Positions 8,712 to 30,989 of a stretch of DNA of 34,069 nt are shown here, in pieces. Under the pieces are notes generated by a model that made no database searches, was not told where the DNA came from, and saw nothing but the letters and a program-made list of their open reading frames with translations. Where the stretch lies: positions 1 through 34,069 of IMG/VR virus record IMGVR_UViG_3300037558_000760, one strand, 5' to 3'. Origin of the DNA: a virus. Every line of letters starts with the position of its first letter. Position 1 is the first letter of the stretch. Position numbers and translations under genes: made by a program.

Positions 8712-9422
8712 TCAGCTGGTCGTTGCTATCATTGGTGGTTGCTTTGGTCGATATAAGTCTGGTGGTTCTCCCGATGAAATTACAAAAGTTTCAGTTTTGG
8801 CTAATCTTGCCTTTAATCGAGCATAATGAGCTTGGGCTTGTGCAAGCTTTGCTTGTGCGTCTGGCTGTCTTTGCCGTACTAAAATATCGTAGGCTGCATA
8901 TAAAACAATCAACTGATCGTCTAAATCTGCCGTGTCACTTTCAGCAATAAGGCTGCTTAGATTTTTAATACCATGCAACCGTATCATTCCCTGCTTTGTT
9001 GTATCCGTAGAATTAACACTTGGAATAGGATGTATTTCAATTTGGTTATTTTCATAACTATCATAACGCTCAACTGGATAGCTGGTTATGCCTCGATCAC
9101 TGTCATATGAATTATATTGGGCTGCACCAATCCCATAATGGAGTTTACTCCAAGTATCGCCATGCTTAAACTCCGCACGTTCAATACGCTCAAATACCAT
9201 ATCGTTTGGCAAATCATAATACCGTTGATTTGCTGATATGCTTAAATCTCTAGTAACTCTTAAAAACGACCATGAGTAATCATCCCACAGTCGCCTTTGT
9301 GTGCGTTGAATACGATCAACAAGAACATCCCTTGTTTGCTTTCCTAAACTTGGTTGTAAACTATGACCAACTTCAGACCGCAAGTCGTTAATTAACGTGC
9401 CAAGTGATGTTCCTCTAGCCAT
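8712..9422 (-). CDS. Tail tube / head-tail adaptor protein (tail tubular protein A-like), 236 aa
   Basis: The sequence MARGTSLGTLINDLRSEVG followed by an Arg/Gln helix and RLWDDYSWSFLRV then RYYDLPNDM is the usual start of gp11-type adaptor proteins, which form the dodecameric ring below the portal. A helical C-terminal section with DQLIVLYAAYDILVRQ and an Ala/Gln-rich helix follows, ending with a Pro-rich tail. It sits upstream of the nozzle gene with a single base between them and downstream of the 50-aa gene. It matches the family in size (about 200-240 aa) and in synteny. Confidence 0.8.
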   Translation of the reverse strand: MARGTSLGTLINDLRSEVGHSLQPSLGKQTRDVLVDRIQRTQRRLWDDYSWSFLRVTRDLSISANQRYYDLPNDMVFERIERAEFKHGDTWSKLHYGIGAAQYNSYDSDRGITSYPVERYDSYENNQIEIHPIPSVNSTDTTKQGMIRLHGIKNLSSLIAESDTADLDDQLIVLYAAYDILVRQRQPDAQAKLAQAQAHYARLKARLAKTETFVISSGEPPDLYRPKQPPMIATTS

Positions 9423-10121: not shown

Positions 10122-11168
10122 TTAAGCGATTTCATAAACACCGTGGCAGTTCAGCTGCGTCGCTGCTAAAACTGCTGTAGTGGTCATGGCACGATACATA
10201 ACGTATTGTGTTGCTGGTCGTGCTGGGGCGTGTTTCTTCATCTTTTCGCCATCCATGTAATACATACATAATTTTGAAGTATCTAAGATGTAGCAACGCT
10301 TATCTGGATTTTTACCAGAGACAGTTAAATCATCTAGGGCAGGGTCGTATTTGAAAGTTAACCCATTGTAGTTGATTTCGCCCATTGCGATATTTTGAGC
10401 CCCAGAAAATCCAGTTTGAGAATAAGAACCGTTTCTTCTTAATTCGTCAGCAAGACGATCTAAGAAAGCTGATCCACAAACTGCAATATTTGGCTTACCA
10501 CCAAATCGTTTCAATTGACGCATTTCAGTGTGAAGTAAGTCAATTAATTGTGTTCCAGTAGCTGTATTTGCAATAGCTACATTTGATCTTGATCTCCACC
10601 AAGCATTTGTAGAATTTGACAAACCACCAACTGTACCAGAAGTAGGGGCATCTTTAATTAAAGCTTGAAGCCCAGCGATTGCTTTTGCATCTCCAGTACC
10701 ATCACCATATAGCAACGTATTCATGCCTCTGGAGTAGCCTTCCATCATATCACCAAGCTTATCTTCAAGAAGATTAACTAGAGCGTGTTGGTCACGCTTT
10801 GAGTGATTTGAAGTCGCTGAAGATGTGGTGCTATCATTGACTGAAATACCATCATGCTTCAATTCAGTCATTGTGACTGAGATGCCTGTATGATGTTCAC
10901 GCCAAGTATATGCACATCTCAAGATGTTAGCTGGGTTTGCATAACTCACTGTATCGTTATGAGTATATCCAGCAACAGAACTTGTGTAAGTTCCCTTGAC
11001 TGCTATGCTGACATCCCCTTTACCACCTGGAAAGGTTTTGCTTGCTTTATCCATTGCTGAAAGCAACGGTTTGTCTTCAAGAGACTGTTCATACGCTTGC
11101 CCCTTGTTAATGTAGTAATCCAACGCTGCGTTTGCAATGTTGGTTAGTTCTGCTGATGAGAAAGCCAT
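10122..11168 (-). CDS. Major capsid protein, HK97-fold candidate, 348 aa
   Basis: It starts MAFSSAELTNIANAALDYYI with an AGGAG ribosome site. The length suits a phage coat protein. A Gly-rich loop region (FPGGKGDVSIAVKG) near residues 45-60 could be the extended loop. A long helix (HALVNLLEDKLGDMMEGYSR) matches a spine helix. The A-domain-like segment holds FGGKPNIAVCGSAFLDRLAD, a pattern often seen in capsid proteins. It lies directly behind an acidic scaffold gene and is followed by a terminator, the normal arrangement for highly expressed coat protein. No delta domain or maturation protease is visible. Confidence 0.85.
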   Translation of the reverse strand: MAFSSAELTNIANAALDYYINKGQAYEQSLEDKPLLSAMDKASKTFPGGKGDVSIAVKGTYTSSVAGYTHNDTVSYANPANILRCAYTWREHHTGISVTMTELKHDGISVNDSTTSSATSNHSKRDQHALVNLLEDKLGDMMEGYSRGMNTLLYGDGTGDAKAIAGLQALIKDAPTSGTVGGLSNSTNAWWRSRSNVAIANTATGTQLIDLLHTEMRQLKRFGGKPNIAVCGSAFLDRLADELRRNGSYSQTGFSGAQNIAMGEINYNGLTFKYDPALDDLTVSGKNPDKRCYILDTSKLCMYYMDGEKMKKHAPARPATQYVMYRAMTTTAVLAATQLNCHGVYEIA

Positions 11169-14286: not shown

Positions 14287-15870
14287 TTAGAAACCTTCCG
14301 TTAATCGTAAAATTCGTTCTTGTTTGTATTCTTGTTTCGATGCGTATTTAACCCAACCGAATGTTCCTACTTCTGGAATTGCTTCTTCTTTCCGTGTGAA
14401 CCCACCTGGAGTTGCAAACCGATCTAGCCCCATTCCAATCCAAGCCAAGGTATCGACAAAATCATCGTTACGACCGTTTGGGAATTTAAGCAGTTCATCA
14501 ACTGCAATTTGTGTCCAAGGGCTAATCTTTGGAAACTTAACTTTTTTCATTGCCATGCGACCAAGAATACTTTGGCTTCTTTGAACCTTATTTGCTACTG
14601 GAGTAACTTCTTCGATCTTACAATATACTCGTTCTTCGCTCATTCTCTTTCTAAGAAATGGTCGAATTGACTTACTAATGTGACCCTTTTCAGCCCACCA
14701 AATCAACGGCTTGTGTTGTTTTATTAACTTTAACATAGCATCTATAACTTTATCTACTGGTCGTTTTTCGAGCCAGCAATCCAATACATAAATATCGTCA
14801 TTGCTATCGACACCAACAATAAGCAAACACGTTGCATCATTTCTCGTTTTATCTGTTCCAACCGCATGATCAGACGCAGCATATATCCTTAAATTTGTTG
14901 GTAAGTTTTTCCGGTCATAATAGAGGATATTTTCTCTTTGGAATAAGTCACCATCTTCTGCCGTGGGTCGTTGTTGGTACAATGCTGAAAAGCCTCTAGG
15001 ATCTAGTCGCCTTTGTGCTTCCATAAACTCTTTATCAAATCGTTCTTCCCATAATATCTCGCCACGCTTTCGTCCAAGCGGATCATCGTCTTCTGCAAAA
15101 GCTGGTAAATTAATAATCTTCCACTTTTCTGCCTCTTGCTCATTAAAATGTGGGTTCATAGGATCAGTTAATCTTCCTATTAAATCATCCTCATGCCAGC
15201 GTGTTTGTACAATAACAATACCAGCAGAAGAGGTCATTAATCGTGTCATTAAGACTTGTGTAAACCATGTCCATAATTGCTCTCGCAGGGCAGGGGATTG
15301 AGCTTCCAACGCATCCTTAATAGGGTCATCTAATATCACTACGTCACCACCTCGACCTGTTATTGATCCGCCTCGACCAACAAACACTTGCATCCCACCA
15401 CTTTCAGTTTGTATTCGGCTTTTACTTGCTCCACCTTTTCTAAATTGAAAACGAGGAAACACTTGCATATACTGAGGTGTTTCCATGATCGAGCGACAAT
15501 CCGCACCAAAATCTTGTGCAAAGTCCTCATTATAAGTCGCAAAGATAATATTCTTATAGGGATCACGACCAGCTAACCAAGGAATAAACCGCCTGGATAT
15601 TAATTCTGATTTACCATGTCGAGGAGGCATACACACGATCAAACGAGGAATATGACCTTTCTCAACTTTCTCTAATACCTTCGCCAATGCTCGATGATGT
15701 TTTGCATCCTTAAACAAACTTAACTTTAGGTCTTCGGGATCTTCGGGATCAGGCATAGTAAACTTAACAAACTGTAAAAAGTTATCTCGACACTCAATAG
15801 CCATCTTCTGCCGTTTTGCAGCTGCAATACGCCTATCAAGTTCAGAAGTATCTTTTGGATTAGTCAGCAA
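14287..15870 (-). CDS. terL: Terminase large subunit (packaging ATPase-nuclease), 527 aa
   Basis: The ATPase half has Walker A PPRHGKSE (residues 82-89), Walker B VVILDDP (177-183), and a coupling-motif region IVIVQTRWHEDD (218-229). The C-terminal RNase H-like nuclease shows candidate acidic residues at D334 (AASDHAVG), E394 (WAEKG) and D469-D473 (DDFVD). It cuts and pumps concatemeric DNA through the portal. The start is a TTG that overlaps the lysozyme stop by 11 bases, with AAAGG about ten bases upstream. The next ATG is codon 23 and has no good ribosome site, so the TTG is preferred but not certain. Unusually, the small subunit gene is over 7 kb away. Confidence 0.92.
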   Translation of the reverse strand: MLTNPKDTSELDRRIAAAKRQKMAIECRDNFLQFVKFTMPDPEDPEDLKLSLFKDAKHHRALAKVLEKVEKGHIPRLIVCMPPRHGKSELISRRFIPWLAGRDPYKNIIFATYNEDFAQDFGADCRSIMETPQYMQVFPRFQFRKGGASKSRIQTESGGMQVFVGRGGSITGRGGDVVILDDPIKDALEAQSPALREQLWTWFTQVLMTRLMTSSAGIVIVQTRWHEDDLIGRLTDPMNPHFNEQEAEKWKIINLPAFAEDDDPLGRKRGEILWEERFDKEFMEAQRRLDPRGFSALYQQRPTAEDGDLFQRENILYYDRKNLPTNLRIYAASDHAVGTDKTRNDATCLLIVGVDSNDDIYVLDCWLEKRPVDKVIDAMLKLIKQHKPLIWWAEKGHISKSIRPFLRKRMSEERVYCKIEEVTPVANKVQRSQSILGRMAMKKVKFPKISPWTQIAVDELLKFPNGRNDDFVDTLAWIGMGLDRFATPGGFTRKEEAIPEVGTFGWVKYASKQEYKQERILRLTEGF

Positions 15871-19050: not shown

Positions 19051-22000
19051 TTATAACCTCGCTTCTAAAGCTGTTACTTTTTCTGAAAGCTCTTTTATAG
19101 CTTCAATTAAATATCCAGTAATGTTTGCATAAGCGACAGACTTATATCCATCCTCATCTGTCATAACAAGTTCAGGTGCTACCTCTTCTAGTTCTTGAGC
19201 AATTACTCCTGAACCTTGTATATACTTAGAATATTTAGGGTCTTCGCTTGTTTTTTTCTTAAAATAAACCCCACGCATATTTTCTACTTTATCAAGGGCA
19301 AGAGGTATGGTTCGTATATCATCTTTAAGTCTGACATCAGAATACGCTGTGACGTTGCCAGTTGCCGTACAATTTCCAGAAGCATCTATGGTAAAAGTAC
19401 TTGCTGCTCCATTGTAACTTCTAAAGTAATGATTATTTGCATCGTAGTAGTTTGAACCACTTCCAAAGTAAGCTGCTGCGTTTGCGTTTGTTGCCCCATA
19501 AATTATGGTATAAGCACCTGATCCGTCTTGGTTCATCGCTAAGTCGTTATTAATTCGCACACCAGAGTTAAATGAGGCAGACGCTGCTACAACGAGAGCA
19601 GAGAGGTTAGAAGTACTACTAGAATTTAAATAATAAGTAGTACTGTTATTCATATACAGGTTGCCATTGAGACTCTTTCTTAAATCCCAAGACGACCAAT
19701 TACCATTTAAAAACCCATACTCTGATGCACTAACAGAACCGTATAGCTGCCAAGCCCATGCGTTTGAACTATTATAACCAGTAATTCCTACATCATTTGT
19801 GCTTCCATGTCCTTTTACTTTTAAGTTTTGGTCACGTTCTTCTGAAAGTGTTGGAGCAGTTGTTCCCAATTTTACACTTGTCACAGTAATATCTGATGGG
19901 AGCGAGTAGTTGTTTGCACTTGCTGCTATGCCGTCAAGCTTTGTACCATCTACAGACAAGTCTCTACCATCGACCGTTTGAGTGCCAGAGAACGTAATGT
20001 TTCCGGTAAAATTCGCTCCTCCAAGATTTGCTTTAAGAGCGAGACTTGTGTTTACGTCAGAGGTATTTGCCTTTGTCCCAATCGCTGTTGCTGTAGTCGC
20101 AGCAAAATTAGCGTCATCACCAAGTGCTGCTGCAAGTTCGTTCAATGTATTTAACGTGGTAGGGGCTGAGTCGGCTAAGGCTGCAACGGCTGCGTCTGCA
20201 TAAGCAGTCGTGGCTATTTGTCCGTTGCTTGTAAGTGCAGAAGCCGTTGGAGCAAGAGGGATACCTGTGAAGGTTGGAGCGTCGAGAGGAGCTTTTAGGT
20301 TAAGGGCTGTTGTTGTGGTTGCATTGACTGCATAATACGCTCCATGCTGTCCGTCGAGGAGATCTGCGTCTAAGCCAGAGGCTGCTCCGTCTACGGTCTT
20401 TACGGCTGTAAGTATTTCGGCTGCTGTCTGATCGGCTGTGGCACTAGTCTCAATCGTGTCCAGTTTAGTTCCGTCCACAGATAGATCTCGTCCGTCCACT
20501 GTCTGAGTACCAGCAAAAGTAAGATTTCCTGTTAAAGCTCCACCAGTTAAGGGAAGAAACCCTGACCCTGCTGTTACACCTTGTTCCCAAGCAGAGCCTG
20601 TATAAACCTTTAAAATTCCTGTATCAGTTCTAAAGAATAAATCCCCTGCTGATAAATTAGTAGAGGGATCTGACGTACCACTAGAATAAACAGCAGCAAA
20701 CGCTCCAATTCCAGAAAGGTTGGCAGCTACTGTATTCACATTAGAAATCGAACCACTTACACTATTTATGTTTGATGAGTTTGTATTTACTGCGTTAATA
20801 TTAGTCGAGTTAGAGTTTACGGCTGATACAGCAGAAGCTATTGCATTAACCCCTGAGACTGCTGCTTGTATTCCACTTACGGTTGTTACTGCTGATGAAA
20901 TATTATCAACTGCACTTACAGCAGAAGCTATTACGTTTACTCCTGATACTGCTGCTGCAATAGTGTTTACACCAGTAATCGCTGCACTAATCCCTGCAAG
21001 GGTACTCATATTTGTTACATTATTTTGAGTACCAAGAACATCCATATCATTTACCACATCTGCTGTGCCAAGAGTAGTAAGTTGGGAAGTCTTTGCTGCC
21101 AAGCTATTAACATCTGATATGCTTGTGGCTACTGTATTCACATTAGAAATCGAGCCACTAACAAGACCCACATTAGTATTAGCTGTGGCTACCGTATTAA
21201 TATTTGTAGCGTTTGTATTGACCGCACTCACAGCTGCCGAAATTGTATTTACACCAGATATTGCTCCTGAGATTGTATTTAAATTTCCAATCTCGGTATT
21301 TAATCCAGCTAACGTGGTAATCTGAGTGGCTTTACTCGCAACCGTGGCAATGTTATTTGTCGGACTAATCTGACCAGCAACAGTTGTAATTGCTGCATCT
21401 ACTGCCGATACAGCGTTGATATTTGTCGAATTTGTATTGACCGCACTTACAGCTGAAGAAATCGTGTTTACACCAGAAATATCCGTCCGTATTCCATAAA
21501 GAGCAGCTATCTCCGTATTCAATCCAGCTAATGTCGTAATTTCACTCGCCTTGCCAGCAACCGTCGCAACATTATTCGTAGGACTAATCTGCCCAGCAAC
21601 CGTATTTATATTTGCTATTCCACCAGCAACAGTCGTTACATTCGCACTCGTTGCCCAATACTTTGAACTAAACTCTGAACCATTTACTGTGCCACCAGTG
21701 TATTGAGCCCAATCTTTTGCAGAACCAGTTGATCCTCTAATTTGAGTACCAATAGCATATTCCTTAGATGAATAATCCGTTCCATCTACCGTACTCGCTG
21801 TTTCAATTGCCCACTCTTTCGCAGCCCCTTTACTTGCCGTATCCGTAACACCAGTGCCACCAATCGCCCAGGCTTTCGACGAATAATCTGTGCTTTCAAC
21901 AATGCCAGTTGTCTTCCTAGCCCAGTTATCCGCTTCATCCGCAAACCCACTGGCGTTTGTAGCACTTGCAGCAGCAGCGTTTTGTGCAGCTTGAGCAACA

Positions 22001-22632
22001 AGTGAACCACCCCAAATAATAACATTCTCATTTCCAGCTTGGGCTGGAGTACTGGGGGCAGCAACAAAAGTTAATGTCGTGCCGGAAATCGTGTAATCAT
22101 CGGTCGGGTTTTTTAATGCACCATTTACAAACACCAAAACATCCGTCGTCGATGAATAACTAAAACTTAATGTAAATGCAGTCTGACTTCCAGTACCCTC
22201 AAACTTATCAACCGCATAACTCGTTGTATTAATCGCACCATTTGCCAGCAATATCCATTTCGTTGCCGTGTCCGTTGCAAATGCAGATGAACTTGTATGA
22301 GCCACGGTCGCTAAATAAGTCGCTGAATTAAAATTAACCAAGTCACCAACAGCATAAGATACCCCAGTAGCCCAGTTCCCTCTATTTGTATATCCAGACA
22401 ACCCAATCAACGCTAACGCATTTGTATCAAACGCATCCTTGTGAACACTCGCATTGGCAAGCAACCCATCGTCACGCTGTATCAAACCAATATTTGCAAC
22501 TAAAGCATCAAGTGTTAATTTTGCCTTATTTAACTCACCGTCAACTTGAACGCCTGGTAATGGGTCGCTTGGATTTGTCGTAGCAAAATCAGTAAAATTA
22601 TACTGCCGAGTGTAATTGGGGGGTTGAGCCAT
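19051..22632 (-). CDS. Tail fibre with repeat stalk and S74-type self-cleaving chaperone, 1193 aa
   Basis: The N-terminus (MAQPPNYTRQYNFTDFATTN, about residues 1-210) looks like a virion-binding head, and includes YTNRGNWATGVSYAVGDLV, a short carbohydrate-type module. Residues 330-660 are a long repeat stalk of units like IS-x-VNTIAAAVS-x-VNTNSTNIN. Two modules sharing GTQTVDGRDLSVDGTKLD follow. The end is a Peptidase_S74 domain: SDVRLKDDI begins at S1098, followed by GSGVIAQELEEVAPEL and a final coiled coil. In that family autocleavage occurs just before the Ser of the Ser-Asp dyad after trimer folding. It mediates host recognition. A strong promoter lies about 30 bp upstream. Confidence 0.9.
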   Translation of the reverse strand: MAQPPNYTRQYNFTDFATTNPSDPLPGVQVDGELNKAKLTLDALVANIGLIQRDDGLLANASVHKDAFDTNALALIGLSGYTNRGNWATGVSYAVGDLVNFNSATYLATVAHTSSSAFATDTATKWILLANGAINTTSYAVDKFEGTGSQTAFTLSFSYSSTTDVLVFVNGALKNPTDDYTISGTTLTFVAAPSTPAQAGNENVIIWGGSLVAQAAQNAAAASATNASGFADEADNWARKTTGIVESTDYSSKAWAIGGTGVTDTASKGAAKEWAIETASTVDGTDYSSKEYAIGTQIRGSTGSAKDWAQYTGGTVNGSEFSSKYWATSANVTTVAGGIANINTVAGQISPTNNVATVAGKASEITTLAGLNTEIAALYGIRTDISGVNTISSAVSAVNTNSTNINAVSAVDAAITTVAGQISPTNNIATVASKATQITTLAGLNTEIGNLNTISGAISGVNTISAAVSAVNTNATNINTVATANTNVGLVSGSISNVNTVATSISDVNSLAAKTSQLTTLGTADVVNDMDVLGTQNNVTNMSTLAGISAAITGVNTIAAAVSGVNVIASAVSAVDNISSAVTTVSGIQAAVSGVNAIASAVSAVNSNSTNINAVNTNSSNINSVSGSISNVNTVAANLSGIGAFAAVYSSGTSDPSTNLSAGDLFFRTDTGILKVYTGSAWEQGVTAGSGFLPLTGGALTGNLTFAGTQTVDGRDLSVDGTKLDTIETSATADQTAAEILTAVKTVDGAASGLDADLLDGQHGAYYAVNATTTTALNLKAPLDAPTFTGIPLAPTASALTSNGQIATTAYADAAVAALADSAPTTLNTLNELAAALGDDANFAATTATAIGTKANTSDVNTSLALKANLGGANFTGNITFSGTQTVDGRDLSVDGTKLDGIAASANNYSLPSDITVTSVKLGTTAPTLSEERDQNLKVKGHGSTNDVGITGYNSSNAWAWQLYGSVSASEYGFLNGNWSSWDLRKSLNGNLYMNNSTTYYLNSSSTSNLSALVVAASASFNSGVRINNDLAMNQDGSGAYTIIYGATNANAAAYFGSGSNYYDANNHYFRSYNGAASTFTIDASGNCTATGNVTAYSDVRLKDDIRTIPLALDKVENMRGVYFKKKTSEDPKYSKYIQGSGVIAQELEEVAPELVMTDEDGYKSVAYANITGYLIEAIKELSEKVTALEARL
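20700..21650 (-). repeat. Degenerate tandem repeats in tail-fibre stalk
   Basis: Short units encoding VNTI/VNTNSTNIN/AVSGVN-type motifs repeat across about 950 bp. Longer duplicated blocks encode TVAGQISPTNN and ITTLAGLNTEI twice. The units are similar in DNA as well as in protein, so the stalk has probably grown or shrunk by recombination. Confidence 0.75.
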
Positions 22633-23125: not shown

Positions 23126-23572
23126 TTAGCTATTGCTCGTTTCTGGTGGTGTAACGTCCTTCAGCTTTTCGTTTTCCCAGCGATCAATCATTGATCCTAG
23201 TTCTTCGGCTGTCATCTCGCTCATACTTTTGCCAGCCATTGCCCTCTCATTGACCTTCACCAGATCACCAGCAAGTTCGAGGCTTGTTCTAACTGCACTG
23301 ACCTTCGCCCCAGATGGTGCGTCAGGATCAAGCATGACATCTTTGAGGGTTTGGACAGCCAAACTGGCAAGCTCAGAGCCGTAGAGCGTTTGTCTCGCTC
23401 GCTGCATACTAGCTAAAATATTCGGTTGCTGAAGTAGACGGTATGCATCTTGGCGAGGCGAACTATAGCCAGCCAACCTAGCAGCTTCGGTTCTATTCAT
23501 ACCTTTGTGTACTATGTAATCAATAAAATCACGCTGCTTGTCGGTCATGCTCGATCTAACGGCTATATTCAT
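23126..23572 (-). CDS. terS: Terminase small subunit (DNA recognition), 148 aa
   Basis: Residues 9-50, starting MTDKQRDFIDYIVHKGMNRT and running on to EAARLAGYSSPRQDAYRLLQ, match the Terminase_2 family's helix-turn-helix: T-x-KQ-x-x-F, N-x-TEAA-x-x-AGYS, then LLQQPNI. The central part is helical (oligomerisation), and the acidic C-terminus (ELGSMIDRWENEKLKDV) probably contacts the large subunit. It binds the packaging site and feeds DNA to TerL. Its gene lies over 7 kb from terL, with the fibre and lysis genes between. Transcription starts in the divergent gap at 23573-23712. The ribosome site (GGTGA) is weak. Confidence 0.85.
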   Translation of the reverse strand: MNIAVRSSMTDKQRDFIDYIVHKGMNRTEAARLAGYSSPRQDAYRLLQQPNILASMQRARQTLYGSELASLAVQTLKDVMLDPDAPSGAKVSAVRTSLELAGDLVKVNERAMAGKSMSEMTAEELGSMIDRWENEKLKDVTPPETSNS

Positions 23573-27193: not shown

Positions 27194-27517
27194 TCAAATG
27201 TCCCCAGCCTCATTCGCTGGGGATTTTTTTGTACTCATTTCCCCTCCTAATGCTGAATACCCTACCTTATCTGTCCAGCTGTCTTGGCTTTCAATCTTAT
27301 TGGCTAGTCTGCATGACTTCACCCAATCCATCATGAGAGCGACATGACTAGCCGTTATGTTTCCATTTTTCTCGATTGCCATCTTTGCAATGATTGTCCA
27401 GCCAACAGCAATATTATTATGATTGATATAGGCATCGCCATAATCGCTGGCTCGATCCCCATTTATTAATTCTTTGGCTTCATCAATAAAGCTATCCCTA
27501 GAACGGTATTTCGTCAT
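27194..27517 (-). CDS. DUF6378-like phage protein, 107 aa
   Basis: The start at 27517 (MTKYRSRDSFIDEAKELING) is chosen because GGGGAGG lies about eight bases upstream. A start five codons earlier has none. The pattern DRASDYGDAY, ALMMDWVKSCRLANKIES then DSWTDKVGYSALGGE corresponds to the DUF6378 family (DR-x-x-DYG, VALMM...K.AR, DSW.D.AGYAALG), small phage proteins of unknown biochemistry. The last residues (SPANEAG) are encoded by the terminator stem of the opposing operon. It overlaps the upstream gene by 20 bases. Confidence 0.75.
   Translation of the reverse strand: MTKYRSRDSFIDEAKELINGDRASDYGDAYINHNNIAVGWTIIAKMAIEKNGNITASHVALMMDWVKSCRLANKIESQDSWTDKVGYSALGGEMSTKKSPANEAGDI
27201..27230 (+). 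terminator. Rho-independent terminator of the plus-strand early cluster
   Basis: TCCCCAGC (27201-27208) pairs with GCTGGGGA (27216-27223) around a seven-base loop, followed by seven T (27224-27230). It ends plus-strand transcription at the convergent junction and lies inside the 3' end of the opposite-strand gene. Confidence 0.9.
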
Positions 27518-28109
27518 CGAGAACCTCCCCATTATCCGTTATGTTTCCAATTTTTTTAATTTCAGCACCAGGAAACTTTTGTTTTATTTCCAGCGATATT
27601 TTGTTTTGCTTGTGCCAAGCTGTAACGACCCTACAGACCTCATTCCAACTCATCACTACGTCTGCATCATCAACTTTCTTTGCATCCCCTGTATCCCTCA
27701 CAAATGCCCATTTCTGACCATCTTCATCGGTGTGATACCAAGCTCGATCCAAATCGGGCTCATGACCCAGCTTGATAGCTTTGCTCTGCAATACCTTCCA
27801 CCCCAATGCCAAGTTGCTGCATTTCAAAATCATGTTTTCTTCATCATCCTCATTGCAAGCAATCTGATAGGATTGATAGGCTCTCTCAAATTTGGCAGCA
27901 GTTTCCGGATCAACTAATTTCGGCAATTTATTAAATCCCCATTTAGCTTCCATTTCGTGTTGCACCTCAAGCATCGATTGTTGAGCAGCAATAATCGCTC
28001 GACTTCGATAGTCCGACCACATTGCTGTAAGTTTCCAATCCACCTTTTCCTGAGTAAAGGTTTTTCTCTTCTGCATATTCTTTTTAGCAGCTGTTGAAAT
28101 TTGTTTCAT
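27498..28109 (-). CDS. Protein with SSB-like acidic C-terminal tip (DDEIPF), 203 aa
   Basis: A basic N-terminus (AAKKNMQKRKTFTQEKVDWK) is followed by a helical domain (residues 25-110) and a mixed domain containing WYHTDEDGQKWAFVRDTGDA. The end is GEVLDDEIPF. The last residues match the conserved acidic tip of bacterial SSB (DDDIPF), which docks replication and repair enzymes. No OB fold is obvious, so it may instead use the tip to recruit or compete for host SSB partners. It is transcribed from the region holding the iteron array. The ribosome site is weak. Confidence 0.65.
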   Translation of the reverse strand: MKQISTAAKKNMQKRKTFTQEKVDWKLTAMWSDYRSRAIIAAQQSMLEVQHEMEAKWGFNKLPKLVDPETAAKFERAYQSYQIACNEDDEENMILKCSNLALGWKVLQSKAIKLGHEPDLDRAWYHTDEDGQKWAFVRDTGDAKKVDDADVVMSWNEVCRVVTAWHKQNKISLEIKQKFPGAEIKKIGNITDNGEVLDDEIPF

Positions 28110-28158
28110 TTTATTTTCTGCCCTTCGATTTCGTTACCTTCTTCCACTCCGCACGTTA

Positions 28159-28456
28159 GTGGCGGAAGTGGCGGAAGTAACGTAAGGGGGTATGGGGGGG
28201 TTACTTCCGCCATATTTTTTCGCTCACTTCCGCCAAAAGGGGGTTCACTTCCGCCTCACTTCCGCCAATTTGCTCATTTTTGCTCCATTTTTAGCCCAAA
28301 TATTGCTCACTTCCGCCAAAACAGCCTTCATTTCCGCCTCACTTCCGCCTAGTATTTTCATTTCCGCCCACTTCCGCCAATGTTTTCAATGACTTAATTT
28401 TTTGCAATATTAAATGGCGGAAGTAAGGCGGATTTGCGGAAGTGATCATTTCCGCC
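28159..28456. other. Iteron array, candidate origin of replication
   Basis: This 336-bp gap (28110-28445) has no convincing gene. ACTTCCGCC occurs at 28203, 28226, 28247, 28258, 28309, 28341 and 28370, with ATTTCCGCC at 28330, 28360 and 28448. The inverse GGCGGAAGT is at 28161, 28170 and 28416, with variants at 28427 and 28435. Spacings between direct copies are 23, 21, 11, 51, 21, 11, 19 and 10 bp, close to multiples of a helical turn. AT-rich tracts (28212-28220, 28395-28414) lie among them. The primase-helicase gene is 410 bp away. Iterons bound by an initiator are the usual mark of a theta origin. Confidence 0.65.
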
Positions 28457-28670
28457 TGATTTTTCCTATAATATCTGGTCGTTTCATAGGTGGTGGGTTA
28501 AGGTCATTCAAGCTTCCATATGACAAATTTCTTGGATCATTATAGCGAATTATCATGCTGCATTTGTTATCCGTTGCAGCCGTAGAATTGTAGTTTTTGT
28601 AGAACGCATTACACACAGCCTCGTCGCTAAACTCCATGAAAATTGTTGCTATAAAAACTATTTCTTTCAT
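28446..28670 (-). CDS. Small protein of unknown function, 74 aa
   Basis: It starts MKEIVFIATIFMEFSDEAVC and ends in a basic segment (PPPMKRPDIIGKIRRK). The first strand-helix (IVFIATIFMEFSDEA) resembles a small alpha/beta fold. It overlaps the upstream gene by four bases (ATGA), supporting translation. Its last codons contain the first iteron-like ATTTCCGCC. No family is recognised. Confidence 0.6.
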   Translation of the reverse strand: MKEIVFIATIFMEFSDEAVCNAFYKNYNSTAATDNKCSMIIRYNDPRNLSYGSLNDLNPPPMKRPDIIGKIRRK

Positions 28671-28873
28671 CTGATTACACCTGTTTGCCGACGAGAATTA
28701 AATCGGCAGCTAAGTTGTAGCTCCTCTTCGACCAGCCGAAATAATTCTTTAAGCAGCTTATCCTTTTTAATTAGCTGATTTAAATTCTGGCATCGTTTGT
28801 ACTCAATCATAGCTTCTTGCACTTGTTTATATTTCTGGGGGATTGTTGCTCGGATCATTTGCAGTTCAGTCAT
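28667..28873 (-). CDS. Small helical protein, 68 aa
   Basis: It starts MTELQMIRATIPQKYKQVQE, almost entirely helical and charged (LIKKDKLLKELFRLVEEELQ), with a basic end. GGAGG eight bases upstream and an overlap of eight bases with the primase-helicase stop indicate coupled expression. A coiled-coil accessory to the replication proteins is plausible from place and shape only. Confidence 0.65.
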   Translation of the reverse strand: MTELQMIRATIPQKYKQVQEAMIEYKRCQNLNQLIKKDKLLKELFRLVEEELQLSCRFNSRRQTGVIR

Positions 28874-30989
28874 TGTATGTGCCTCCTGGTATTTGGATTA
28901 CTTTAAATCCTTTTTTCTTTGTTTTTTTATCGTGGATTTCATCACTAATCATATTGTTGTTGAGCCAAGCGTTAATGTAAGACTTGACGGTTTTAATAGG
29001 GAGTTCCAATTCGCTTTTCATATAGCTTTGCAGCGATCGTTTGGAGTTTGCTCCAAGTGCAAACGGCTGGTCGCTATCCCAGCGTGTTTGTATTTCTCGA
29101 AAAATTTCTTGCGTCTGTGGTATCGTTAGTCGTGTCCCAGCCTCTAAAATTTCGCTGACCTCAACGCTACGGTCAATTAGAAGCCCATTTTCGGCTCGAA
29201 TAAACGTCCGAACTGCCTTATCTGCGTTGTCATTAACTTTAACCACACCGCCACACACGGCATTTCCGACACCGATTTCAAAGTCCAGTTTGTCCGATAA
29301 TGTCATTTGATCGGCTTCGTTCAGTTCCCATAATGAATACGTCCAACGGCTGCCATCAACCAATGCCGTTGTCCCTCGAATTGCTTCTCTCGCTTGGCTG
29401 CTTTTACGAATAGAAAAGCTTCCGTCTTTCCGCATATGGTGGGCGATTAAGATATTGCAGTTTGCAGCGACTGCCAGTTCTGACATCATTGACCACCAGT
29501 ATTGCCCTGCTGCTGGATCAGAATTAAGATCAGCCATTGCAAAGGCTTGAAGCGGATCAATGATAACCAACTTGAGATCGTCAAATTCGAGAAGTTGTTT
29601 TCGTATTTCTAAATATTGCTCGGTGATAGAATACTGACCCATTACGTTTTGAATGAGCCCGACTGCACCGCCAGCGTCAGGCATAGGCACGACGAATAGG
29701 TTTCCCTTGGCTCGATCTCTTAATGTTTGATCTGCAATGCTGGCAATGCGTCTGTGAACGCTTTCTTTGCTGTCCTCTGCACCGAACATAACGACCTTGC
29801 CATAGCTGCTAATATCACCGCCTAATGCTCTTTCAGAATGGATGCCAAGTTCGCCCCCAGCGACCTTTAAAGCGAGGTCTAGGAGGATGTAGGACTTGCC
29901 CATACCGCCCATGCTTGCAATTAGTCCTGGAATACGCTTGGGGAGGATATTTTCGATTAACCACTCTTGGTCTGGTGCTTCTCCAGCGTAGTTCTCCATT
30001 CCCCAATCAGTTATATTAAGGCGACCACCAGCTTCAGTTGGCAAGCTGAGAGGCTGGCGGTCTAACGTCGTGCTGGGAAGCAACTCAGCAGACGTATTCG
30101 GTACAACCCCATCAAGAACTTTAAGCTCATTGCGAGATTGCTTTTTTAAATTGTAACTAATCTTTTGTCTTAGTAATTGCTCCCCTCGACCATCATCGTC
30201 GAGTGTTTTGCCACGCACACGAACTTTTCGCTGGTAAGTTTCCCATACTTCATTAAATAATCCTTGTTCGTCAAATACTTTTCCGCTGCTTATCCAAGCT
30301 GTCCGAATTGCTCCTATCACCAGCTTTGTCATATATCCCTCTCGACCATCGAGGATCGAGCCAAACTTATCAACCTCCAAGCCGTTGCCCATTGGAGTGC
30401 CGTTGACGTATGTAAACTTACTTCGATCAACGAGAACGGATAACCAATGTGGGCTTTGCTCGATTGCAAACCCACCTTCATCAATTTTATAATGCCTACC
30501 GCACTCATGGATGCTGGGTGCTACAACGACAAATCCTCCCTCTCCTCGAACATCAACTCCTGATCCTAAAACATTTGTTCCAGAATGAACTTCCATGCTG
30601 TCGGGTGCTTTAAAGAAATAATGATTTCCTCCGCTTCCAGATATTGCTTTTAATGTTTCGGGCAGATCATCGTACTCAAGACATAAATCATCTAAACTAT
30701 CCTGACCGTCTTTGCCTTCTCCGACATCGACATCAACTGCATAGCGGTTGCCAGATATTTTTCCTGTTACGACTCCAATATTGTAGCCTTTGTATTGACC
30801 AGTAAACCATTCTTTAATTTGCTTGCTATCTGCCTTTTTCTTTTGGTACTGCGTCCAATCCAAGGCTGGGTGTTTGCCCATAGACTTACACTCCTTGCCT
30901 TTAAAACAGGAACACGCACCATTTTTTATTGTATGTACTGGGACGACCGAAAATCCCATATCTGCCCAATATTTTGCCCATTCTTCCAT
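28866..30989 (-). CDS. Primase-polymerase fused to RepA-like hexameric helicase, 707 aa
   Basis: The N-terminal Prim-Pol domain (about 1-190) has a Cys-rich loop C26/C28/C34 then GKHP, the metal-binding pair D86/D88 (AVDVDV), SGSGGNHYFF with H123, and D146 in GVDVRG followed by GGFVVVAPSIH. A helical linker (200-330) leads to the RepA/AAA_25 ATPase with Walker A GGMGKS (361-366), AEDS at 404-407, Walker B LVIIDPL (474-480) and the histidine-rich ILIAHHMRKDG. The C-terminus (about 620-707) looks like a winged helix (VKSYINAWLNNNMISDEIHD). It primes and unwinds DNA, as in bifunctional phage and plasmid replicases. It ends 410 bp from the iteron array. Confidence 0.92.
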   Translation of the reverse strand: MEEWAKYWADMGFSVVPVHTIKNGACSCFKGKECKSMGKHPALDWTQYQKKKADSKQIKEWFTGQYKGYNIGVVTGKISGNRYAVDVDVGEGKDGQDSLDDLCLEYDDLPETLKAISGSGGNHYFFKAPDSMEVHSGTNVLGSGVDVRGEGGFVVVAPSIHECGRHYKIDEGGFAIEQSPHWLSVLVDRSKFTYVNGTPMGNGLEVDKFGSILDGREGYMTKLVIGAIRTAWISSGKVFDEQGLFNEVWETYQRKVRVRGKTLDDDGRGEQLLRQKISYNLKKQSRNELKVLDGVVPNTSAELLPSTTLDRQPLSLPTEAGGRLNITDWGMENYAGEAPDQEWLIENILPKRIPGLIASMGGMGKSYILLDLALKVAGGELGIHSERALGGDISSYGKVVMFGAEDSKESVHRRIASIADQTLRDRAKGNLFVVPMPDAGGAVGLIQNVMGQYSITEQYLEIRKQLLEFDDLKLVIIDPLQAFAMADLNSDPAAGQYWWSMMSELAVAANCNILIAHHMRKDGSFSIRKSSQAREAIRGTTALVDGSRWTYSLWELNEADQMTLSDKLDFEIGVGNAVCGGVVKVNDNADKAVRTFIRAENGLLIDRSVEVSEILEAGTRLTIPQTQEIFREIQTRWDSDQPFALGANSKRSLQSYMKSELELPIKTVKSYINAWLNNNMISDEIHDKKTKKKGFKVIQIPGGTYND

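Follow-up and report, generated by a model that had tools for sequence, protein, structure and literature searches.

Organization of the Replicase Region

The stretch of DNA analyzed here, hereafter the window, is an IMG/VR virus record of 34,069 bases, taken whole. Two genes on its - strand, one encoding a 707-aa replicase (28866-30989) and the other a conserved protein that we call p203 (27498-28109), lie across from each other on either side of an array of short repeats, or iterons (28161-28456, both strands). The replicase consists of a Prim-Pol domain (PF09250), a RepA-type AAA_25 helicase domain and a predicted C-terminal winged helix; the helicase domain is homologous to RSF1010 RepA (1g8y, E = 5e-13, residues 331-604). 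A gene for a DNA polymerase was not recognized among those genes of the window that were examined. An AlphaFold model of the last 150 residues of the replicase, made with 32 sequences, ends in a winged helix with block-mean pLDDT of 87-95. This predicted domain covers approximately residues 622-698 (28896-29126, - strand) and is our candidate for the iteron-binding domain, given the model, its PDB matches and the association with iteron type described below. The best PDB matches were mostly winged-helix domains with Z scores of 6-8, values that show a shared arrangement but no particular relative. Pfam and the model together place this winged helix in one protein with a primase and a helicase, as in initiators resembling P4 alpha.

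p203 ends in an acidic tail with a motif of the DD-x-I-P-F type (DDEIPF), as SSB does, and such a tip was present in 28/34 p203 members vs. 1/2290 control ORFs. Homologues of p203 were found in 179 of 418 fetched loci. p203 had no Pfam family above cut-off and no shared PHROG. Considered against the OB-fold single-strand binding body of SSB, the modelled p203 has a well-predicted body with a helical and a small alpha/beta part, from which nothing stood out against the PDB beyond helical-bundle look-alikes; its close structural relatives are phage proteins only, uncharacterized or unnamed, apart from one labelled as a terminase small subunit. An assignment of p203 to LamB was rejected, the match being under Pfam's cut-off and restricted to one member. 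A 216-aa protein, considered as a counterpart of the single-stranded DNA-binding protein of the CRP phages discussed below, was set aside for lack of any similarity. Elsewhere in the window, an adaptor protein matches the SU10 family and a capsid protein matches SU10_MCP only below cut-off (8712-9422 and 10122-11168), while a 1193-aa tail protein (19051-22632) carries an S74 chaperone domain at its C-terminus and matches CBM_5_12 weakly.

Anatomy of the Iteron Array

The 9-mer AYTTCCGCC, whose unit on the replicase strand is GGCGGAAGT, has 13 exact sites within 296 bp (28161-28456) and none in the rest of the window; 0.38 sites are expected in the window, and 13 were reached in 0/100 shuffles. 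A comparable density elsewhere had been named in the original prediction as evidence against an origin. Ten exact sites lie on the + strand (seven ACTTCCGCC and three ATTTCCGCC) and three are inverse copies on the - strand, in agreement with the predicted counts of at least ten direct and three exact inverse copies; a variant, ACTTCCGCA, lies beside them at 28435. The predicted layout, with inverse copies flanking the direct ones, holds for the main + block, except that one + copy, at 28448, falls outside the inverse copies. The array occupies the interval from the p203 start (28109, - strand) to the stop of a 74-aa ORF (28446-28670, likewise on the - strand), and its last + copy (28448-28456) is the only one to touch that ORF, at its 3′ end. 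Such confinement of short direct repeats to one small non-coding interval is expected of an iteron origin.

Read along the replicase strand, the array begins with outer copies in both orientations (28416-28456), followed by an A+T-rich stretch containing a TTAAGTCATTGAAAACATTG box, a block of nine iterons and a C-rich box. The A+T-rich stretch (28379-28415) is 37 bp long with 84% A+T and, by its composition, is a candidate melting region. The TTAAGTCATTGAAAACATTG box (28378-28397, - strand) differs at one position from the IHF consensus YAANNNNTTGATW and may be an IHF binding site; its TAAGTNNTTGA core recurs in 13/65 independent arrays of differing iteron type vs. 0/672 control windows. The nine direct iterons of the central block (28203-28378, - strand) read GGCGGAAGT or GGCGGAAAT on the replicase strand. 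The C-rich box AACCCCCCCATACCCCCTTACGTT (28179-28202, - strand) lies between converging iterons, is conserved in the clade of the window, and might serve in priming or melting. Other lineages have a short CCCC...GGGG palindrome at the corresponding end of their arrays. A switch of GC skew near 28.3 kb had been suggested as a check, but no such turn appears; skew in the window tracks gene strand.

The spacings between direct copies (23, 21, 11, 51, 21, 11, 19, and 10) are exactly those first reported, and the suggestion that they follow the helix turn was borne out: the concentration of phase of the nine main + copies at 10.2-10.8 bp was matched by 0.9% of random placements. Among 32 non-redundant CGGAAGT arrays, spacings between adjacent same-strand copies had a period of 10.6 bp with a phase of approximately 0 (R = 0.62, n = 141; R = 0.48 for spacings of at least 13 bp only), with nominal probabilities that are too small because the 32 arrays share ancestry. 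Repeats separated by whole helical turns are a further property of iteron origins. We make no claim of phasing for other iteron families, in which the signal was dominated by nearest neighbors.

Conservation of the Array in Relatives

A search with the replicase protein returned ten contigs of 52-55% identity, all of which were examined. In the sequence read, CGGAAGT arrays lie between the replicase and p203 genes in 8/10; L016 also has an array, and L018 cannot show one because its contig ends inside the replicase gene. The bases preceding CGGAAGT vary by clade (GG, TA, or TG). Dense clusters were present in at least approximately 50 loci, most of them from a DNA-only scan of IMG/VR but with the protein-fetched loci and the window counted in, and a replicase homologue was found in at least 39 of them and a p203 homologue in at least 34; those with neither include coding repeats and fragments. 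Among the matches listed for contigs fetched by DNA pattern alone, most have a replicase and/or p203 homologue beside the array. When the unit of iteron, C-rich box and converging iteron was used as the query, 56 viral contigs were found, all adjoining replicase and/or p203. The array is thus linked to the replicase gene and conserved in relatives that carry a replicase homologue, as is expected of an iteron origin; a lack of such conservation had been named in the original prediction as evidence against it. Matches of the first pattern scan with other repeats and no replicase (e.g., L031, L041, L061, and L108) were judged unrelated, and the single match of the box-pattern scan in bacterial genomes, two motifs only in Streptomyces, was judged to be chance. 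At the DNA level, positions 27-34 kb of the window had no match among named phages. In three close relatives, all from a single lineage (L223, L224, and L229), CGAAAGT replaces CGGAAGT, a difference of one base, and the predicted recognition helix is changed.

The array of the window is not unique; many others occur across a large family of phages. Three protein-only scans with narrow queries yielded 220 replicase loci, in which arrays were sought by a de novo repeat search requiring at least five copies of one 7-mer in the 1.2 kb behind the replicase gene. Arrays were present in 152/220, with dozens of different 7-mer sequences, vs. 15/220 loci in which the highest-scoring of all control windows had at least five copies, a comparison that is conservative because more control windows were scanned. 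The remaining 68/220 had no array at this threshold. Many of the 220 loci are closely related, and they collapse to 65 independent combinations of lineage and iteron. Among named phages, the iteron behind the replicase is ACTACAAA in Roseobacter phages CRP-823 and CRP-811, TGTATAAA in Roseobacter phages CRP-831 and CRP-821, GGCGGAGAT in Rhizobium phage RHph_N65, GTTCCCA in RHph_Y3_1, CGGTACA in Idiomarinaceae phage 1N2-2, and GGCGGAAGT in EBPR siphovirus 5. In Wolbachia phage WO, no array was found in the 200 bp read.

Which Protein Reads the Iterons

The four cultured CRP phages offer a direct comparison. Each of their two iteron types is paired without exception with its own allele of the replicase C-terminus: over the last 141 residues, identity is 99% between phages that share an iteron type and 74-76% between phages that do not, while the helicase core is 94-99% identical throughout. 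CRP-823 and CRP-821 have 98% identity in the first 260 residues and in the helicase, and differ in C-terminus and iteron. At the DNA level, the divergent segment in these phages starts at approximately codon 614 and includes the array, and the sequences become identical again in the next gene. No grouping by iteron type is seen among their p203-like proteins.

Across the family, the partial correlation between iteron similarity and C-terminal identity, given the helicase, was 0.42 (0/300 label permutations). With both helicase and p203 taken into account, the value for the C-terminus was 0.44 and that for p203 itself was 0.06. A within-cluster permutation over all pairs had little power and was replaced by another, in which labels were permuted within helicase clusters and the C-terminus value was reached in 0/2000 and the p203 value in 49/2000. 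p203 serves as a control for linkage only where it directly adjoins the array. Physical linkage explains part of the association of the C-terminus with iteron type, because in many lineages the array lies directly 3′ of the replicase stop codon. In the clade of the window itself the array lies further from the replicase and the comparison of iteron and C-terminus is uninformative; the CRP C-terminus has no confident alignment to that of the window replicase. When the association was computed residue by residue along the C-terminus, it was confounded by clade, and this result was not used. Taken across lineages, the comparisons point to an iteron type that follows the replicase C-terminus and not the helicase core, and p203 only marginally, with linkage as a partial alternative.

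The original prediction had looked for the initiator among the small neighboring proteins. The 68-aa and 74-aa ORFs were rejected in this role, being hardly conserved (0 and 8 weak homologues, respectively, in 418 fetched loci). More generally, it is conceivable but unlikely that the array is an origin whose iterons are read by p203 or another phage or host protein, with the replicase recruited secondarily in the manner of RSF1010. Homologues of p203 do flank the array in most loci, the helicase part is RepA-like, and p203 reached a marginal association within helicase clusters; against this stand the joint model, in which iteron type follows the C-terminus and not p203, the unsorted p203-like proteins of the CRP phages, and the poor conservation of the two smaller ORFs. 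The evidence favors the replicase C-terminus.

A Proposed Origin of Replication

The array is very probably the replication origin of the phage, and we consider it probable that the phage's own replicase binds the iterons via its C-terminal winged helix. The prediction of an origin is supported by the conservation of the array and of its position, by helical phasing, and by the association with the replicase. Against this model as a whole stand the missing switch of GC skew, the 68/220 loci without an array at the threshold used, and the partial alternative of linkage. From these features we infer a sequence of events in which the replicase, an AEP Prim-Pol fused to a ring helicase of the RSF1010 RepA type, would be the probable initiator. 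Its winged helix would bind the phased GGCGGAAGT iterons, bringing several replicase molecules together along a single face of the helix. Melting of the A+T-rich stretch would follow, perhaps aided by a bend at the IHF-like site, after which the helicase ring would load and the Prim-Pol domain would prime. p203 may recruit host replication proteins via its SSB-like tip.

Repeated operators occur in phages, and the array could instead consist of operators that control p203 and the genes behind it by autoregulation. We regard this as very unlikely in place of an origin, although operator and origin roles do not exclude each other. The array is directly upstream of p203, on the p203 strand; however, promoters of the sigma-70 type, the only type looked for, were not found in 27900-28700, an origin is the better fit for a set of eight to thirteen phased sites that includes an A+T-rich stretch, and it is the replicase that varies together with the repeats. 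Repeats also occur at packaging (pac) and partition sites, but such a function is the least probable of all, since the annotation of one structural relative of p203 as a terminase small subunit has to be set against a separate terminase small subunit gene (23126-23572) approximately 5 kb away, a large subunit gene (14287-15870) approximately 13 kb away, and a cross-lineage association that is with the replicase.

Relation to Known Replication Systems

If the array is an origin read by the replicase, parts of the arrangement have counterparts elsewhere. The window helicase domain is related to RepA of RSF1010, where helicase (RepA), primase (RepB′) and iteron binder (RepC) are separate proteins, whereas primase, helicase and proposed binder are here contained in one. 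The P4 alpha helicase belongs to SF3, and P4 repeats form two sites, ori and crr; in the window, an AEP Prim-Pol is joined to a RepA-type helicase and one array was found. P4 alpha, whose primase is of the bacterial Toprim type, binds origin repeats through its winged-helix domain, then unwinds and primes (PMC4234260). The same division of labor, with a single primase-helicase that binds short origin repeats by a winged helix, unwinds and primes, is only proposed here, and the window replicase (Prim-Pol PF09250 with AAA_25/RepA) would work likewise without being a member of the Toprim-bearing alpha family. SaPI Rep (PMC7581432) and PICI origins (PMC6092414) also match the proposed mechanism. 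Those systems differ in using DUF927 or D5-type helicases and in belonging to satellites or islands rather than phages; Pfam gives AAA_25 for the window replicase, and its primase is a fused Prim-Pol. For SaPI Rep and PICI systems, origin specificity is set by the C-terminal domain; here, iteron type is associated with the replicase C-terminus, with linkage as a partial alternative. ORF904 of pRN1 likewise combines Prim-Pol, helicase and C-terminal winged helix, and the origin follows its gene, but the helicase is of SF3 and the origin is a stem-loop without iterons (PMC4234260).

The domain order of primase, RepA-type helicase and winged helix has been described before for AEP primases associated with mobile genetic elements, in a main text that does not mention iterons (PMC5862659). 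The main text of the CRP phage report mentions no iterons, repeats, or replication origin (PMC12629253). In the titles and abstracts of the open-access literature, we found no description of such arrays for this type of replicase.

Implications for Prim-Pol/RepA Phages

Most lytic phages lack a known origin. If our reading is correct, those of many Prim-Pol/RepA phages would be readable from sequence, as a repeated 7- to 9-mer behind the replicase gene. Recognition of the start site is now open to testing because the replicase tail and the adjoining repeats change together across the family, and cultured Roseobacter phages supply natural pairs of C-terminal allele and iteron on which protein-DNA specificity can be tested directly. 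The diversity of iterons would likewise provide data for a winged-helix recognition code, for which the joint change of iteron and recognition helix in L223, L224, and L229 is a lead. We suggest, tentatively, that in Prim-Pol/RepA phages winged helix and array might form one exchangeable cassette with dozens of specificities, and that p203 might be a new adaptor to the host replisome via its SSB-like tip. On our reading, p203 would also offer a new entry point for studying how these phages connect to the replication machinery of the host.
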